Shown piece by piece: positions 4,679-63,756 of a DNA stretch of 64,000 bases. Position 1 is the first letter of the stretch, and every line of letters begins with the position of its first letter. Source of the DNA: Sipunculus nudus (taxonomy: Eukaryota > Annelida > Sipuncula > Golfingiida > Sipunculidae); assembly GCA_026874595.1 (NCBI GenBank), contig CM049309.1, forward strand, positions 29,639,033-29,703,032. The letters run 5' to 3'. The notes beneath the pieces are model-generated. The model searched no databases, was not told where the DNA came from, and worked only from the letters and a program-made list of their open reading frames with translations. Position numbers and translations under genes: made by a program.

Positions 4679-6861
4679 CTGAGAAAAAAATGTCAACCCA
4701 TGGATTAAAACACAGGACAAATACAATACAAAACTACCATTTCTTCATCACTGCATTTATACTAAATGTTGGCATATACTGATAAATCACTAGTTGATAA
4801 ATTGATAAATTATCAAATAATTGTCTACACCATAGTGACATGGAAGAGAACGGACTCTCAGTTGCTAGGAACAATGGGAGTTACTAGGCGAGGAACCCCC
4901 TGGTGGCAGATTCAAATGGTACCATTTCATTGTGAAAATGTCAGTTAAAAACTGGAGGTAAAGGTAAAGCACTGGTCAGTAGAGACCAACATTGGAAACT
5001 AAGACCATGTGTAGTTTGCAGATTATTGCTTGCCGGAGTTTAAAGATTTCTGCAAGCATGCTGGTCAATTGCGTAGGTCTGTTAGTCACGATGAGTGTGT
5101 TTTATTCAACTCTACAGGCCACATTTTTCAGCAATCGCTTTCAAATTTACACAGTTGATTGACAATCAATAGTCCTGAAGCCTTTCCTTTTTGGTCAATA
5201 TAGGTCAAAGGTCAAGGTAATCGAAATAATTCGAATTTTTATTTTTGTCATAACTTCATCAAAAAGAGGCCTATCCATATAAACTATAGCTCATTTTGTT
5301 CCTCTATACCTTTGCCCAAAGACTATTTAGTCATCTCTTTTCTCAGATGTGTCTGTGTGTCAGTATGTCAGTCTGTTTGTCAATTGTCTTAAATTGTTTT
5401 TTATTCATATTTTCATCAAAATTAATTGTAGCCGCATAAACAATAGCTCATTTTATTTGAAATTCCATGGCCTTCCTTCTGATGGCTAGCTGCATCAATC
5501 TGCTGTTCCCACGGTTATTTTTTGTTTTAATTCATGATATTCCAAAATATGGGGTCTCATTTTTCTAACTTTGTCACTTTTTAAGTTAGAGAGGTCTATT
5601 TACTTGCTTCAGGCAGCATTGGGTCAGTTTAAATCTACTTTTTATCAAATCTCGCAAAATCTTGTACTGTTTCTTGTCAAACAAGATATTACGAGATTTC
5701 ATTTTTTTTCGCTATACAGAGCCCCTAATTCTCAAGCAATTGCTCCAGAAATTATAGAGTTAAAACTGGTTTTGGGTCAATATAGGTTCAAGGTCATGGT
5801 CATAAAAAACTTATTTTATTGCTTGCCGTAAACCTTCAATTTCGGCAATCATGTTGGTCAGTTCTGTATGTCTGTTTGTGTCTGTCTCCTCTTAATAGGC
5901 CATATTTGGCAGCAATTGCTTTCATACTTACAGTTGACTGACAATCAAAAGTCCTGGAAGTCTACTGTTTTTGGTTAATAAAGGTCAAAGGTCAAGGTCA
6001 TAAAATCTTCTAAAAACAATTTTTTCTTCATATCTTTGTCAAGAATCATCATAGCCGCAAAAACTATAGCTCATTTTCTGTGTCATTTCAAGGCCTTTCT
6101 TCTGGTGTGTAGCTCCCTCAAATCTGTTGTAACCATGGTAACACATTTTTAGGGAAAATCATGATGCAGTATAGCGCTGATTTTCTGAAAGCATCAGGGG
6201 ACAAGCTTTTTGTTTAGAAAAACAAACTTTTCAGAAATATGGTCATGGGTCCAGTTAACTTCTGAGCACCATAGCTCAGTGGATATGGGTAACAGAGACC
6301 TAATTTCAGGTTTCCAAAGGGGTTTTATTATGGACATCCCTAGATGTCAAGCTGAAAGATTCTAGGTCTAGCAGTTATGATTTTTGCCCTATTAATGGAT
6401 GGATGGTCGAACAATTGACAAAGAGTGATCGCTATGGCTCAGATGACTTTCAGTCAGCTGAGCTATTAAAACCAGGAAATATGTTCTGTCTGTTCATCGT
6501 GGCTTTTCAATATCAGCATTAATAGATAAAATTGCTATTGTTTCTGCTCTCCCAGAACATTGCTCATTCAAATTACTGTTTTCACTTGTTCCCCTGTCTT
6601 CCTGTCTCTCTGTCTGTATGAAATATTTCAAATATTTTAAGCTGCCACAATCAGAGTCAATCTGTAGTGTATTTAAGCTACCACAATTAGAGTTAATTTG
6701 TAGTGTATTTAGGTTACCACAATCAGAGTTATTCTGTAGTGTATTTAAGCTGCCACAATCAGAGTCAATCTGTAGTGTATTTAAGCTACCACAATTAGAG
6801 TTAATTTGTAGTGTATTTAAGCTATTAGAATCAGAGATAATTTGTAACGTATTTAGCCTAC
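4679..6861 (-). other. TPR intron e12-e13
   Basis: The 2.2-kb intron starts with the 36-bp donor array. It also has two copies of a repeat with AGGTCAAAGGTCAAGGT (about 5028-5590 and 5820-6185) and a conserved-ends right end at 6470. The stretch 4680-5020 shows nothing. Confidence 0.7.
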
Positions 6862-6866
6862 CACCA
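6636..6866 (-). repeat. 36-bp array carrying copies of the e12 splice donor
   Basis: On the plus strand the motif GCTACC or a variant occurs at 6641, 6677, 6713, 6749, 6785, 6821 and 6857, an exact 36-bp step. The last is the real e12 donor. On the gene strand most units read TGTGGTAGCTTAAATAC, close to the authentic GGTGGTAGGCTAAATAC. Two units have GC in place of GT, and the 6821 unit has lost the donor. Confidence 0.9.
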
Positions 6867-6966
6867 TCATTTTGTCAAGCTGCCCACTAAGCTGTTTGTT
6901 GGTTTCCATAATTTGTTCAGCTTCCTCTCTTTGTTTCTTGATTAATGGAGCTTTGTCCTCGATCTC
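6862..6966 (-). CDS. TPR: TPR exon e12, whose donor is tandemly reiterated
   Basis: The 105-nt, 35-codon exon has acceptor TATAAAAG and donor GTG before GTAGGC. It encodes EIEDKAPLIKKQREEAEQIM then ETNKQLSGQLDKMMV, matching human [20 protein letters not shown]. The GTG/GTAGGC donor was chosen because it makes LDKMMVEVENL align without a gap to human LEQAMKEIQRL. A 36-bp repeat starts at this donor. Confidence 0.9.
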
Positions 6967-10939: not shown

Positions 10940-12165
10940 CTAGGATACGGGTAGTCGACAAGCGACTGTGTATCCGCCGAAATCAGAGTGGAACGGGTGA
11001 AGTGAGGCATGGATTGAGTGGCAAGGGAAAATAGAGTGAGGTGTGTTGCATATTAGCATGGATGTCTGCAGCCGAAATGTATATGTAGGTTGCACCACCT
11101 ACCACAAATGCAGGAAGCTGTCACATAAATGTAGATGGCACCACCTGCCAAAAAAATCGAGAAAGCAATCCAAGATGTATAAACACGCAAAATCCTTAGG
11201 CAGATAAGTCAAACCACTACAGAGATATGAGTGATTTTAGCCCATGGAAGACAAACAGACAGACGCTGTGCAAAAATGGTTGCAGGTGGCCCCTCCAGTT
11301 TTGTGTATGATAAAGAGCTATGTGATATCTATACACATGCAAAACTTTGGCCCAATCGGTCAAACGGTTCCTGAGAAATGAGCTTGGATGTCTGCAGTGT
11401 AAACATGAATGTAGGTGGCACCACCTTCACAAAATCGAGAAAGGTATCCAGGATGTATAAACCTGCAAAATTTTAGGTGGATATGTCAACCCACTGCTGA
11501 GATATGAGTGATTTTATCCCACGGCAGACAAACAGACGGACACTGTGCAAAAATAGTTGCAGGTGGCGCCACCATTTTTAGTGTATGTTATAAAGCTATC
11601 CGAGGGCTACATTTGTGTAAAATTTTTAGACTGATTGGTCAAACGGTTCCCGAGATATGAGCTAGGATGACTGCAGCGTAAACGTGAATGTAGGTGGCGC
11701 CACCTGTCACAAAATCGAGAAAGATATCCAGGATGTATACACATGCCAAATTTTAGGTGGATATGTCCAACTAATGCAGATATGAGTGATTTTATCTCAA
11801 TGCAGATGAACAGATGGACACAGTTCAAAAATGGTTGCAGGTGGCGCCACCATTTTTAGTGTATGTTATAAAGCTATCCATGGGCTACATTTGTGTAAAA
11901 TTTTTAGCCTGATAGTTCAAACGGTTCCCGAGATATGTGGGTTTATGTGTGGAAACAGACCCACAAATGGACGCAGAGTACAGAGGAAAGGTCAGAGGTC
12001 AAAACAAAATCGGGGCGCAGAAGTTCACATGTGACCCGAACATAATCCCGGGTTTCGTAAAATTCTGTTAAGCGGTTACGGAGGAGTTCTCCGGACACCC
12101 ACGCGGCGGCGGCAGCATCCGGCTGAAAACATAGTATCTGCAAAACTCTGTTTTGGCGGATACAA
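10940..12165 (-). mobile_element. Non-autonomous Helitron-like element, copy H1
   Basis: In plus-strand view it runs from CTAGGATACGGGTAGTCGAC, with hairpin AGTCGACAAGCGACT, to TTTTGGCGGATACAA, before T. The interior alternates two related half units of about 130-148 bp with GGTGGCGCCACC near 11565, 11693 and 11841. It is oriented like H2 and opposite to H3. Confidence 0.85.
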
Positions 12166-40829: not shown

Positions 40830-43825
40830 CTAAATGACCAATTATCAGGCACTATAGAAACATTAAGCATCAACAGATGACTGGTCAAAATGTTTACTCC
40901 TATTCAGATTTCCCTCTTTAGATTTCCAAATATTTCAAAATTTAAATAACAAAGTTCCACAATTTTACAGGATCAAAATAGAGTATAAAACCATATTATA
41001 TTTCAGGCCATAGAAATCAATAAATTTAACTTGGTTATAATCTAAATTAATTTTCAGGGGCTTAAGACTCCACCTCCATCATACTTTGTTGTTTATCTTT
41101 TGATATGTACTAAGCTCAACTGTCATATGTATTTATGACACAAATACCATATTTCCTTGATCGTACGCCGGGCCTTAAATTGTCGCCTGCCTTATTTAGT
41201 AGCTGAGGCAAAGCAATGTCTCAGAAAATCAAAGGCCGGCCTTAAATAGACGCCAGTATAGTTCAGAAGCCCAGTTTCATAGTAGTGTTCCATGTTTGCC
41301 ACCAGATGTCTTTTCCCATCATTGTATCCGCCAAAACAGAGTTTTGCGGATACTATGTTTTCAGCTGCACGCCGCCTAGGTGTCCGGAGAACTCCTCCGT
41401 AACCTCTGGGCGGAATTTACGAAACCCTGGACTATGTTCAGGTCACATGTGAACTGCTGCGCCCCGATTTTGTTTTGACCTCTGACCTTTCCTCTGCGCT
41501 CTGCGTCCGTTTGTGCGTCTGTTTCCACACATAAACCCACATATCTCGGGAACCGTTTGACGGATCAGGAAAATATTTTTGCACAAATGTAGCCCTTGGA
41601 GAGCTTTATAACATACACAATGTTTGCACAGTGTTCATCTGTTCGTCAGCCTTAAAATCACTCATATCTCTGCAGTGATTTGACTAATTCACCTGAAATT
41701 CGGCATGCGTATACATCCTGGATAGCTTTTCTGATTTTATGACAGGTGGCGCCACCTACATTCATGTTTACGCTGCAGACATCCAAGCTCATATCTCGGG
41801 AACCGTTTGACCCATTGGGCCAAAATTTTGCATGTGTATAGATCTCACATAGCTCTTTATCATACGCAAAACTGGTGGAGCCACCTGCAGCCATTTTTGC
41901 ACAGCTCCCGTCTGTTAGTTTGCGATGGGATAAAATCACTCATATCTCTGCAGTGATTTGACTAATTCACCTGAAATTCGGCATGCGTATACATCCTGGA
42001 TAGCTTTTCTGATTTTATGACAGGTGGCGCCACCTACATTCACGTTTACGCTGCAGACATCCAAGCTCATATCTTGGGAACCGTTTGACCCATTGGGCCA
42101 TAATTTTGCATGTGTATAGATCTCACATAGCTCTTTATCATACGCAAAACTGGTGGCGCCACCTGCAGCCATTTCTGCACAGCTCCCGTCTGTTTGTCTG
42201 CCATGGGATAAAATCACTCATATCTCGGCAGTGGTTTGACATATCTGCCTAAAATTTTGCAGGTTTATACATCCCCGACAGCTCTCTTGATTTTATGACA
42301 GGTGGCGCCACCTGCATTCTTGTTTATGCAGCAGACATCCAAGCTCATATCTTGGGAACCGTTTGACCGATTGGGCCAAAATTTTGCATGTGTATAGTTC
42401 TCACATAGCTCTTTATCATATACAAAACTGGTGGCGCCACCTTCAACCATTTTTGCACAGCGTCCATCTGTTTGTCTGCCACGGGCTAAAATCACTCATA
42501 AACATATAGTGGTTTGACTTATCTGCCTCAAATTTTGCATATGTATACAACTTGGATGGCTTTCTGGATTTTGTGGTAGGTGGCGCAACCTACATACACC
42601 ATTTGGCTGCAGACATCCATGCTAATATGCAACACTTCACTCTATTTCCCCTTGCCACTCAATCCATGCCTCACTTCACCCGTTCCACTCTGATTTAGGC
42701 GGATACACGTAGTCGCTTGTCGACTGCCCGTATTCTAGTTATAATTGGTGCATTTACTGGTCAAATTGACAGGAGACTGTTGCATGTTGGTTTGTGCATG
42801 TTGATAATATGTTTAATTCCTCTATAAATCCTTCTTTTTTTTTCTAACGTGCATGCCTGTTTCCACTGGGGAGACCAATTCCTTATTCGTCCATTATGAT
42901 TAAAGTCAATCACCTATCCCAGTAAATCACTGCTGTCAAGCTGGATAAAAATAGTACCACTTGACACAGGCGGTATCATTTGTTATGGTGACTATCTACC
43001 TCACGGATGGTTGAACAGAACTGTTCAAATATGTTTGGGCATATATTTCTTGTGTAGCATGAAGACACCAAATGATGGTGTCAAGCAGTTCAATTTTTAT
43101 CACCTGTAAAGCCAATTTACAACCCTTGATTTTATTTTGAAGCGCCCCCAGTGTAAAATAAATGCAACTGCCACATGAAACACCAACGTACCTGGTTTCG
43201 AGAGGCACGCGCAGACAGATTATTGTGGAGAGGTGAAAATCTCTCCGTGTGATTCCCTGTAAATTATTATAATGGTGCGTGATGATGGAGATTTTGCATG
43301 TCCCATATCCCTATGGCATCTACGGATATTTCATAAACACAATCCATGTACCAGCGATGTTTTCAATTGTGTCCCCAAGTGATTGCCGGCAGGTTTATTG
43401 TTTCAAGGTGATTTTTTTTTGTTTGTCTGTTGAGCCTGATAATGTATTTTGTTAAATAAACATCCGTCTTTAATAGGAGCCCGCCTTGTTTTGATGAAAG
43501 CTCAAAGCAAGGACTAAAAAAAAATGCCCTGGCGTCTGATCAAGGAAATATGGTATTCTAGGAATTTTCATAACTTCTGTGACTATTTCTACAGAGCTAG
43601 GTTTCATTTAAAATTGTGATTGTTTAGTTTCTACTTAGGATAATTTAAACCTTACTAGCCACAGTAGAAACATTCCTTTCAAACTGGCAATAAACAAGTT
43701 ATTAATATGGCTTTACAGTGCACTATACAACACCCCAGCAAATCAAAATGTAGATAGACCACTACTAGAAGAGGCAGATATGTTGGGATTCTGTAACAGA
43801 TACTGACAGTTCCTGAGAGCCTCAC
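40830..43825 (-). other. TPR intron e7-e8
   Basis: The 3.0-kb intron is half occupied by a Helitron-like element (41320-42738). The flanks 40830-41319 and 42739-43825 are non-coding. Phrases near 41160-41240 and 43480-43540 repeat each other in inverse sense (ATTTCCTTGATCGTACGCC against GCGTCTGATCAAGGAAAT), so the Helitron-like element may sit inside an older inverted-repeat element. Confidence 0.6.
41320..42738 (+). mobile_element. Non-autonomous Helitron-like element, copy H3
   Basis: The 5' end is TTGTATCCGCCAAAACAGAG after a flanking A. The 3' end has GGCGGATACACGTAGTCGC, the hairpin AGTCGCTTGTCGACT, then CCCGTATTCTAG before a flanking T. A hairpin a few bases before CTRR and an A/T target are Helitron hallmarks; the 5' TT instead of TC is atypical. 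The body is a tandem array of about 140-bp half units, each with the palindrome GGTGGCGCCACC or a variant. No Rep/helicase is encoded. Confidence 0.8.
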
Positions 43826-50861: not shown

Positions 50862-53783
50862 CTGTAGGAAATAAAAACACCTATCAATGTCAAGCAACAG
50901 CTTAACTGTTAAAATACAGGTTAAATAAATATGCTCTGCTTTCTGTAAATAAATCTGGTCTGGCAAAAAACTAAAATCCTCATCAGCTGGTTTCAAGACT
51001 GCAAATTGCTCTGGCCACAACTCAAATCCTCATCAGCTTCCTTAAAGACAGAAATCTGGTCTGGCCACAACTAAAATCCTCATCAGCTGGTTTCAAGATT
51101 GCAAATTGCTCTGGCCACAACTCAAATCCTCATCAGCTTCCTTAAAGACAGGAATCTGGTCTGGCCACAACTAAAATCCTCATCAGCTGGTTTCAAGATT
51201 GCAATATGCTCTGGCCACAAATCAAATCTTCATCAGCTTACTTAAAGGCTGGAATCTGGTCTGGCCACAACTAAAATCCTCATCAGCTGGTTTCAAGATT
51301 GCAAATTGCTCTGGCCACAACTCAAATCCTCATCAGCTTCCTTAAAGACAGGAATCTGGTCTGGCCACAACTAAAATCCTCATCAGCTGGTTTCAAGATT
51401 GCAATATGCTCTGGCCACAAATCAAATCTTCATCAGCTTACTTAAAGGCTGGAATCTGGCCTGGCCACAACTAATATCCTTATCAACAGGCTAAAAGATT
51501 GCAAATTGCTCTGGCCACAACTCAAATCCTCATCAGCTTACTTAAAGACTGGAATCTGGTCTGGCCACAACTTAAATCCTCATCAGCTGGCTTCAAGACT
51601 GCAAATTGCTCTGGCCACAACTCAAATCCTCATCAGCTTCCTTAAAGACTGGAATCTGGTCTGGCCACAACTAAAATCCTCATCAGCTGGCTTCAAGACT
51701 GCAAATTGCTCTGGCCACAACTCAAATCCTCATCAGCTTCCTTAAAGACAGGAATCTGGTCTGGCCACAACTAAAATCCTCATCAGCTGGCTGCAAAATT
51801 GCAATATGGTCTGGCCACAACTCAAAGCTTCATCAGCTTACTTAAAGACTGGAATCTGGTCTGGCCAAAACTTAAATCCTCATCAGCTGGCTAAAAGATT
51901 GCAAATTGCTCTGGCCACAACTCAAATCCTCATCATCTTCCTTAAAGACTGGAATCTGGTCTGGCCACAACTAAAATCCTCATCAGCTGGCTAAAAGATT
52001 GCAAATTGCTCTGGCCACAACTCAAATCCTCATCAGCTTACTTAAAGACTGGAATCTGGTCTGGCCACAACTAAAATCCTCATCAGCTGGCTTCAAGACT
52101 GCAAATTGCTCTGGCCACAACTCAAATCCTCATCAGCTTCCTTAAAGACAGGAATCTGGTCTGGCCACAACTAAAATCCTCATCAGCTGGCTTCAAGATT
52201 GCAATATGCTCTGGCCACAAATCAAATCTTCATCAGCTTACTTAAAGACTGGAATCTGGTCTGGCCACAACTAAAATCCTCATCAGCTGGCTTCAAGACT
52301 GCAAATTGCTCTGGCCACAACTCAAATCCTCATCAGCTTCCTTAAAGACTGGAATCTGGTCTGGCCACAACTAAAATCCTCATCAGCTGGCTTCAAGACT
52401 GCAAATTGCTCTGGCCACAACTCAAATCCTCATCAGCTTCCTTAAAGACAGGAATCTGGTCTGGCCACAACTAAAATCCTCATCAGCTGGCTTCAAGATT
52501 GCAATATGCTCTGGCCACAAATCAAATCTTCATCAGCTTACTTAAAGACAGGAATCTGGTCTGGCCACAACTAAAATCCTCATCAGCTGGCTTCAAGATT
52601 GCAATATGCTCTGACCACAACTCAAATCCTCATCAGCTGGTTTCAAGACTGCAAATTGCTCTGGCCACAACTCAAATCCTCATCAGCTGGTTTCAAGACT
52701 GCAAATTGCTCTGGCCACAACTCAAATCCGCATCAGCTGGTTTCAAGACTGCAAATTGCTCTGGCCACAACTCAAATCCTCATCAGCTTCCTTAAAGACA
52801 GGAATCTGGTCTGGCCACAACTAAAATCCTCATCAGCTGGCTGCAAAATTGCAATATGGTCTGGCCACAACTCAAATCTTCATCAGCTTACTTAAAGACT
52901 GGAATCTGGTCTGGCCACAACTAAAATCCTCATCAGCTGGCTAAAAGATTGCAATATGCTAAAGCCCAAACTCAAATCCTCATCAGCTGGCTTAAAGATT
53001 GCAATATGCTCAGGCCCAAACTCAAATCCTCATCAGCTGGCTTAAAGATTGCAATAAGCTCATGGCCCAAACTCAAATCCTGTCCAGTTGGCTCTAGGGC
53101 TGCAATCTGATTAGCCCAGATTAGAACTGACAATCTTCCCAGTTTAAGTTAGTGGGGCTAGTTGGGGCATAAAATTTACATGACCCAAAAGGATTTTACT
53201 GGACCATGCACTTTTGTAAATGAAAACCCTTATTTACATAAATAAAATTTTGCACTTACAAGGGTTTATATGAATTTTACTATTGCTTATAATTCATTGA
53301 AAAGGTCTATTCTGACATGTTATCAGAACTAACACATTAAGCCATTGACTTTCCTGCATTAGTCTTTCAGAGCAGCAGACAGCAGATGACAGATAAATTG
53401 CATCACAACACAACACATTAGTGTGATGCCTTGGCAGCAAGCTTGCCTAATAATATCTTTTCAATCATCTCAGTAAGGCAGTATATATGAGCTTTCATCT
53501 TTTATTAAACATCCCACAAAACATCATTATAAACCACAGCCATTTGTTCAAAACATTAATTTACAACAACCCTGTGACTTCTCTATTTACCACAATATAA
53601 AGTTGTGATGTCAAAGAAGAAACCAGGCTTTATTATACTTGTAAAAGTAAATATTTCTAAAAAAATTCATTTAAGACATGAGAATGAATACAGTCATTAG
53701 AAAAAACTCAGTAAAACAGTTCTACTGTAACTAGAAGTACTTACCTCTTGAAAAACAGTTTAACTGTAACTAGAAGAACTTAC
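50862..53783 (-). other. TPR intron e4-e5
   Basis: Most of the 2.9-kb intron is the 50-bp array described separately. The e4 donor duplication is at 53745-53784. The stretch 53110-53700 is unremarkable AT-rich intron. Confidence 0.75.
50950..53110. repeat. 50-bp tandem array with 100-bp higher order, about 43 units
   Basis: Units alternate CTGGCCACAACTAAAATCCT..CAGCTGGTTTCAAGATTGC and CTGGCCACAACTCAAATCCT..CAGCTTCCTTAAAGAC. Both begin with CTGGCCACAA at an almost strict 50-bp step, and A and B units alternate to give a 100-bp dimer. Near 52600-52760 several A-type units follow one another. The last few units have diverged. Its distal edge is about 90 bp upstream of the e5 acceptor. The protein-like frames inside are repeat artefacts. 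Confidence 0.95.
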
Positions 53784-53788
53784 CTCTT
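53741..53788 (-). repeat. Duplicated e4 splice donor, 39-bp step
   Basis: On the plus strand a block of the form AACTGTAACTAGAAGAACTTACCTCTT occurs twice in succession, so GAG before GTAAGT is present at 53784 and again at 53745. Using the downstream donor would add 13 codons but meets an in-frame TAA at once. Confidence 0.85.
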
Positions 53789-53834
53789 CTGTCCTGAGAG
53801 CGAGTTCAGACTGAAGCTGGAACACCTGTCTGGC
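53784..53834 (-). CDS. TPR: TPR exon e4, 17 codons
   Basis: This 51-nt exon lies between acceptor AATTTCAG and donor GAG before GTAAGT and reads ARQVFQLQSELALRTEE, matching human [20 protein letters not shown] in position. Identification rests on frame, splice sites and position between e3 and e5, because the exon is too short for similarity alone. Its donor region is duplicated 39 bp downstream. Confidence 0.82.
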
Positions 53835-57627: not shown

Positions 57628-57770
57628 TTGACCAAGGAGGAATAAAATCATAATCAGATAAGGAGACTCACAAACTCCGATAACCCTTTAACCTATAGTG
57701 AAACTGACTGATGGTTTTTGAGATACTGTATCGTAGTTTGTAAATGGACATACTTATTTACATTACATTT

Positions 57771-58395
57771 CCTCACCTGATCTGTATCCTAGTTTGTGAA
57801 TGGACATACTTATTTACATTACATTTCCTCACCTGTTCTGTATCATAGTTTGTGAATGGACATTATTATTTACATTACATTTCCTCACCTGATCTGTATC
57901 CTAGTTTGTGAATGCACATACTTATTTACATTACATTTCCTCACCTGTTCTGTATCATAGTTTGTGAATGGACATTATTATTTACATAACATTTCCTCAC
58001 CTGACCTGTATCCTAGTTTGTGAATGGACATACTTATTTACATTACATTTCCTCACCTGATCTGTATCATAGTTTGTGAATAGACATTATTATTTACATT
58101 ACATTTCCTCACCTGATCTGTATCCTAGTTTGTGAATGGACATTATTATTTACATTACATTTCCTCACCTGATCTGTATCCTAGTTTGTGAATGGACATA
58201 CTTATTTACATTACATTTCCTCACCTGTTCTGTATTGTAGTTTGTGAATGGACATTATTATTTACATTACATTTCCTCACCTGATCTGTATCCAAGTTTG
58301 TGAATGGACATACTTATTTAAATTATGTTACCTCACCCGTTCTGTATCAAAATTTGTGAATGGACTTACTTATTTACATTACATTTCCTCACCTG
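57771..58395 (-). repeat. Twelve-copy 56-bp array carrying copies of the e3 splice donor
   Basis: On the plus strand CCTCACCTG (or CCTCACCCG once) occurs at 57771, 57827, 57883, 57939, 57995, 58051, 58107, 58163, 58219, 58275, 58331 and 58387, a constant step of 56. Read on the gene strand each unit contains the exon-like CAGAACAG or CAGATCAG followed by GTGAGG. The 58387 copy is the real e3 donor. Units alternate two variants (CATACTTATTTA and CATTATTATTTA), suggesting growth by 112-bp dimers. Confidence 0.95.
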
Positions 58396-58506
58396 TTCTG
58401 TTCCCATGCTGAGACTCTCTTCCATCTTTTTACGTAATTCTTCATTTAACCAATCAACCTGCTGTTGCAGATTCTCTTTTTCTTGATCAAAGCGCTGTTC
58501 TCTAAG
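58393..58506 (-). CDS. TPR: TPR exon e3, whose donor is tandemly reiterated
   Basis: The 114-nt, 38-codon exon has acceptor TTTCACAG and donor CAG before GTGAGG. It encodes LREQRFDQEKENLQQQVDWL and NEELRKK, matching human [22 protein letters not shown]. Its last bases plus the first part of the intron are repeated eleven more times downstream at an exact 56-bp period. Confidence 0.9.
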
Positions 58507-63659: not shown

Positions 63660-63756
63660 CTGATAATCTATCAATCTCTTTGTCTCTTCTCTCCAACAAC
63701 ATACAAAGATTATCCTTCTCCATCTGGAGTTGGCCCTTCTCCCTCTTCAGTTCCAG
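63660..63756 (-). CDS. TPR: TPR exon e1 (phase 0 in, phase 1 out)
   Basis: The 97-nt exon follows a T-rich acceptor (TTTTTTTTAG) and ends CAG before GTATAA. It encodes a charged coil (LELKREKGQLQMEKDN... ending EIDRLS) that aligns with the human TPR segment around residue 115-145. It is the most 5' exon in the window, so the initiator methionine lies beyond 64000. Confidence 0.85.

Follow-up and report, generated by a model that had tools for sequence, protein, structure and literature searches.

Mirage-like minisatellites across exon-intron boundaries in the sipunculan Sipunculus nudus

Lancelet mirages have been described in the Adh3, TnC and PGBD5 genes and in the globin genes BflGb6 and BflGb9 as tandem duplications whose unit lies across a 5' or a 3' exon-intron boundary, with AG or GT present in many, but not all, of the units (PMC3087553, PMC3902484). 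According to the passages on BflGb6, the inner units of its mirage are homogenised and the edges are not, which corresponds to concerted evolution with excluded edges, and splicing of the Adh3, globin, TnC and PGBD5 genes is reportedly undisturbed (PMC3087553, PMC3902484). In humans, intron 7 of F7 contains repeated 37-bp donor units of which the most upstream alone is normally used; when this first donor is weakened, the exon is skipped and downstream cryptic sites are used. Human CBS carries a 31-bp VNTR across the boundary of exon 13 and intron 13, also with repeated donors, which in people has been associated with the activity of the enzyme and with alternative splicing. Intron gain via AGGT-type sites has been described as the tandem duplication of a segment with splice signals (PMC4974935, PMC2812944). 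Our search of the mostly open-access literature returned junction-spanning repeats in lancelet and human and, among the matches listed for annelids, in which Sipuncula have been placed (PMC10212961), only a paper on earthworm metallothionein genes. These genes contain intronic minisatellites and exon-4 duplications that are missing from transcripts (PMC12783039). They may be a related case, and the passages on them describe no repeats across a splice junction.

We analysed a window of 64,000 nucleotides of S. nudus DNA (assembly GCA_026874595.1, contig CM049309.1, positions 29,639,033 to 29,703,032), whose numbering is used below. A first-pass annotation had claimed that a 5' splice site of TPR exon e3 is reiterated twelve times in this window at an exact 56-bp step. 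The predicted protein identifies the gene that carries the array as TPR: four exon translations, when joined, matched PF25481 (Nucleoprot-TPR) with an E-value of 1.4e-11, above the family cut-off, and e3 matched human TPR (E 8e-6). A tblastn search with human TPR as the query located 15 exons in TPR order over 124 kb, with three further rows set aside (20227; 67193, which has stops; and an alternative reading at -137). By reading ORFs, we added e4 at 53834 and an exon at 63756. Donors were placed for 16 of the 17 exons, and tandem arrays open at three of these 16, namely those of e3, of e4 and of the exon ending at 6862. The features of the gene referred to below are:

58393 to 58506, minus strand: TPR exon e3, 114 nt, 3' end in phase 0, LREQRFDQEKENLQQQVDWLNEELRKKMEESLSMGTEQ
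58391 to 58392, minus strand: authentic GT donor of e3, CAG/GTGAGG
57775 to 58336, minus strand: eleven extra GT donors at 56-bp steps (58336, 58280, 58224, 58168, 58112, 58056, 58000, 57944, 57888, 57832 and 57776)
57726 to 58401, minus strand: minisatellite of 56 bp in 12.1 copies over the e3 donor, from TRF, with the last 9 exon bases in its first unit
58366 to 58368, minus strand: first in-frame stop reached via any extra e3 donor, after VRKCNVNK
53784 to 53834, minus strand: TPR exon e4, ARQVFQLQSELALRTEE, from ORF reading and absent from the tblastn list
53713 to 53788, minus strand: second junction-spanning array, 39 bp in 1.9 copies, from TRF, duplicating the e4 donor GAG/GTAAGT
6862 to 6966, minus strand: downstream TPR exon, EIEDKAPLIKKQREEAEQIMETNKQLSGQLDKMMV, donor inferred as GTG/GTAGGC, with an alternative, ATG/GTGGTA, three bases upstream
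6636 to 6869, minus strand: third junction-spanning array, 36 bp in 6.5 copies, opening at the inferred donor of the 6862 exon

The reiteration of the e3 donor was borne out. Twelve GTGAG donors follow one another on the minus strand from 58392 to 57776 at an exact spacing of 56 bp, and TRF recovered the array with a period of 56, 12.1 copies, 90% matches and a score of 1100. The array had been annotated at 57771-58395; its limits call for a small correction, as TRF extended it about 45 bp further into the intron and about six bases further into the exon. Each unit had also been said to carry the last exon bases and GTGAGG, giving eleven extra donors, and we found GT in 11 of 11 and the authentic 9-mer in 10 of 11, the odd copy being the donor at 58336 (CGG/GTGAGG). 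The repeat takes in nine exon bases, ACAGAACAG. ACAG is common to both ends of the array, and the distal stop comes after another ACAG, which suggests that the founding duplication probably occurred between two ACAG motifs. As anticipated by the annotation, use of an extra donor would lead to an early stop. In fact, all eleven give the identical reading, VRKCNVNK (8 codons) followed by the same stop, so they would yield one truncated product rather than eleven proteins.

The units of the e3 array are not equally alike. Over the 47 bases of the intronic part, units 3-11 differ among themselves by a mean of 2.64, whereas edge units 1, 2 and 12 have 5.22 mismatches to units 3-11, so that the internal units are homogenised and the edge units excluded, as in a mirage. 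There are two unit types, which partly alternate. Alike inner units, divergent edges and partly alternating types are what repeated exchange within the array would leave. With up to 3 mismatches allowed, a 26-base core of the unit had at least 11 genome matches, and all of those listed lie in the e3 array; an 801-base query from the locus found, among the genome matches listed, itself alone.

Each mirage feature that we tested was present, and by its anatomy the e3 array can be classed as a mirage: like those of lancelets, it is a tandem minisatellite whose unit lies over an exon-intron boundary, with homogenised inner units and divergent edges. Unlike the lancelet mirages, the S. nudus arrays lie in sipunculan TPR, kinesin and myosin genes, reach up to 15 copies and are known here from genome sequence alone, which also separates them from F7, where a donor mutation has been studied in a human gene. 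The e3 repeat resembles the CBS VNTR in crossing an exon-intron boundary with repeated donors. It differs from intron gain by duplication in that its copies lie inside an intron, with no new intron or exon evident.

At the third TPR array, GT is present in three of six extra copies at the inferred donor and in five of six at the alternative. Because the apparent loss of GT hinges on which of the two donors is real, we gave it little weight. The intron between e4 and e5 contains a further array with a 50/100-bp period (50952-53081, 21.3 copies of 100), which stops about 90 bp short of the e5 acceptor and does not span the junction. Elsewhere in the window, two pure (AT)n runs flank a 276-bp unit present in 2.6 copies (1875-2693). 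The unit contains GGTTCGACTCC, which we take to resemble a tRNA B box; ARAGORN reported no tRNA in the window. Two arrays share a 278-bp period (11123-11937 and 41653-42628). Judged unaligned, the two consensus units resemble each other in reverse complement and may belong to a single family, perhaps of a mobile element or a dispersed satellite.

Beyond TPR, we surveyed kinesin and myosin genes. The kinesin and myosin models gave 201 exon matches (126 and 75, respectively), of which 160 loci were sampled (109 kinesin and 51 myosin) with about 450 bp of flank on each side, overlapping or odd matches being among those left out. We counted TRF array clusters with a score of at least 100 and a period of 15-300, limits that were set after the array list had been seen. 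There were 25 such clusters, and 12 of them span a splice junction, with junctions assigned by eye. Six cover donors and six cover acceptors, so that 5' and 3' exon boundaries are both affected in this genome:

Donor-spanning arrays: L084, L149, L157, L159, L172 and L173
Acceptor-spanning arrays: L053, L058, L062, L076, L089 and L118

At L149, the GTCAGT donor occurs 13 times (11 of 13 as CAG/GTCAGT), and at L076, the acceptor occurs 15 times. The donors of L157 and L159 were inferred, the Pfam match giving no boundary for them, and L172 has two candidate donors, both contained in its array. L084 and L118 are 53 kb apart and perhaps belong to one gene. At L084 and L159, about 50 bp of exon is copied together with the donor, which comes near to partial exon duplication. 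Separately, four adjoining myosin-head matches at G000:C2:44849337-44852248 cover nearly the same stretch of the model (~109-153), which suggests mutually exclusive exons of a muscle myosin gene.

Given how common minisatellites are in this genome, some might cover exon edges without having been seeded at junctions. Around TPR, 18 array clusters occupy 12.4 of 124 kb. At this density, in which arrays of long period and those of TPR itself (three) are counted as well, 5.3 of 320 junctions would be expected to carry an array, against 12 observed (P 0.008). Chance coverage fares worse when the 25 arrays are placed at random in their own loci with at most one unit in the exon, since this predicts 2.6 spanning arrays rather than 12 (P 2e-6); with L157 and L159 removed, 10 of 25 span, and the random-placement probability of 10 or more is 1e-4. 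In TPR itself, 3 of 16 donors have arrays where 0.26 are expected at the density around TPR (P 0.0025), though the pattern was first noticed there. A count of first occurrences that did not use TRF gave 18 in five near-junction bins (donor -80 to 40, acceptor -40 to 40) versus 17 in 14 farther bins, a 2.96-fold excess (P 0.0013) obtained with near bins that were chosen once the counts were known, with first occurrences picked by hand and with loci unable to score again farther out after a near array. The 18 near loci include 11 of the 12 arrays read as spanning (L157 fell in a far bin). The others, not counted as spanning, were L030, at which the large array falls about 50 bases short of the acceptor and just a weak piece reaches it; L022, L038 and L087, whose arrays stop short of the junction by eye; and L057, L113 and L138, which were not inspected by eye. 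We also applied a stricter window test to 111 donors and 104 acceptors, placed automatically with a consensus. Donors scored in 3 of 111 cases compared with 0-1 of 103-107 at six offsets, a small excess that argues against chance coverage, and acceptors showed no excess (1 of 103, compared with 0-3 of 96-101 at offset points), as chance coverage would have it. This test missed the by-eye junctions of L172, L159, L058 and L062 and misplaced those of L173, L053 and L076, and its 28-base window penalises arrays that hold little exon sequence. By the first three measures (array density, random placement and the binned count), the excess at junctions is about 2.3- to 4.6-fold, in a sample of modest size whose junctions were assigned by eye. 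As selection against exon damage should only reduce such counts, the excess points either to mutational bias at junctions or to longer survival there. Coverage by chance is unlikely without being negligible; it concerns the origin of the arrays and is compatible with a mirage, with which its odds overlap.

We also counted CAGGTRAG sites across the genome in threes, spaced by gaps of 20-50 bases, which gave 1675 forward and 1316 reverse, versus 1649 and 448 for a backward control. Because overlapping windows on a few satellites of a single contig made up the rows listed, nothing was drawn from this count. Long arrays whose units contain CAGGTRAG lie at G000:C1:62836, C1:2740396 and C1:2779815, with periods of about 24/48, 42 and 33 bp, respectively.

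The first-pass annotation had offered three readings of the e3 array: a donor decoy, a modulator of e3 splicing, and a record of slippage seeded at the exon border. Slippage fits best, given ACAG at both array ends, a core found among the matches listed at the e3 locus only, inner units more alike than the edges and comparable arrays on other exon edges. A decoy or modulatory role found no clear support. As a decoy or poison switch, the extra donors would be in competition for U1 and the spliceosome, sending some transcripts to the premature stop and thereby lowering or tuning TPR output. With the authentic 9-mer in nearly all of them, that stretch gives no preference among donors, and the stop reached is identical whichever extra donor is used. 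Moreover, few windows of the unit are as invariant as that of the e3 donor, only 5 of 56 circular 9-base windows equalling it (6 of 56 in copies 2-12). However, the four other arrays tested show no special conservation of the splice window, as the windows as good or better numbered 17 of 36 (L149), 34 of 72 (L062), 44 of 61 (L053) and 36 of 36 (the 6862 array, at its inferred donor). Splice cores were kept in 37 of 47 donor copies and 30 of 34 acceptor copies, compared with 636 of 940 and 511 of 680 for other dinucleotides, but we did not use this retention as evidence of selection because the units are related and some copies are off register (four of L157 and one of L084, each by one base). 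Furthermore, acceptors carry comparable arrays as often as donors in our sample, which the decoy idea does not predict, and use of the authentic or first site is what has been reported for F7 and for lancelet mirages. We consider a decoy improbable.

Even less probable is that a row of strong U1 sites aids the definition of e3 or shields the 4.6-kb intron from early polyadenylation. Twelve donor-like sites within 0.6 kb would suit such a platform, but it leaves the acceptor arrays unexplained, and 13 of the 16 located TPR donors have no array. Tandem repeats are error-prone in assemblies, and the copies could in principle be absent from the real worm. An artefact is nevertheless highly improbable, as the e3 units differ from one another, similar arrays occur at unrelated loci and the 676-bp e3 array is far below HiFi read length. 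HiFi reads were used to build this assembly (PMC10212961).

We favor the reading that the e3 array is a mirage, that is, a captured-boundary minisatellite that expanded on the intron side, has no dedicated function and is tolerated, and we assign it a probability of roughly 0.78. Under the mirage reading, a short tandem duplication between two ACAG motifs would have caught the last 9 exon bases together with 47 intron bases, and the captured unit would then have grown toward the intron via slippage or unequal exchange. The authentic donor, being the most upstream and still attached to the real exon, would go on being used, which would allow the array to persist; by analogy, e3 would splice at 58393. 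We infer that the downstream copies are either ignored or yield a transcript with one early stop that is then degraded. Two observations count against this reading. GT in all extra e3 donors, together with so few windows as invariant as that of the donor, leaves room for weak upkeep of the donors. Skipping and cryptic-site use at F7 with a weakened first donor imply that such copies need not be inert.

More tentatively, at somewhat short of even odds, splice junctions of S. nudus may be birth sites of minisatellites, with donors and acceptors giving rise to junction-spanning arrays at several times the rate of nearby intronic positions; about 1 exon in 13 (12 of 160 sampled) would then carry one, and the genome would by extrapolation offer thousands of natural tests of spliceosome choice among identical sites. 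What is new here is possibly that mirages occur outside lancelets, that they are frequent and that they are perhaps seeded at junctions. This would extend the lancelet phenomenon to another phylum and would provide material on which models of intron gain through duplicated boundaries could draw. Identical donors or acceptors beside an authentic exon amount to a natural experiment in which the sequence of the site is constant while its position and exon context vary. If such arrays are as common as our sample suggests, RNA-seq of a single worm would reveal if splicing always goes to the first site, and counting arrays genome-wide would reveal if junctions are mutational hot spots.
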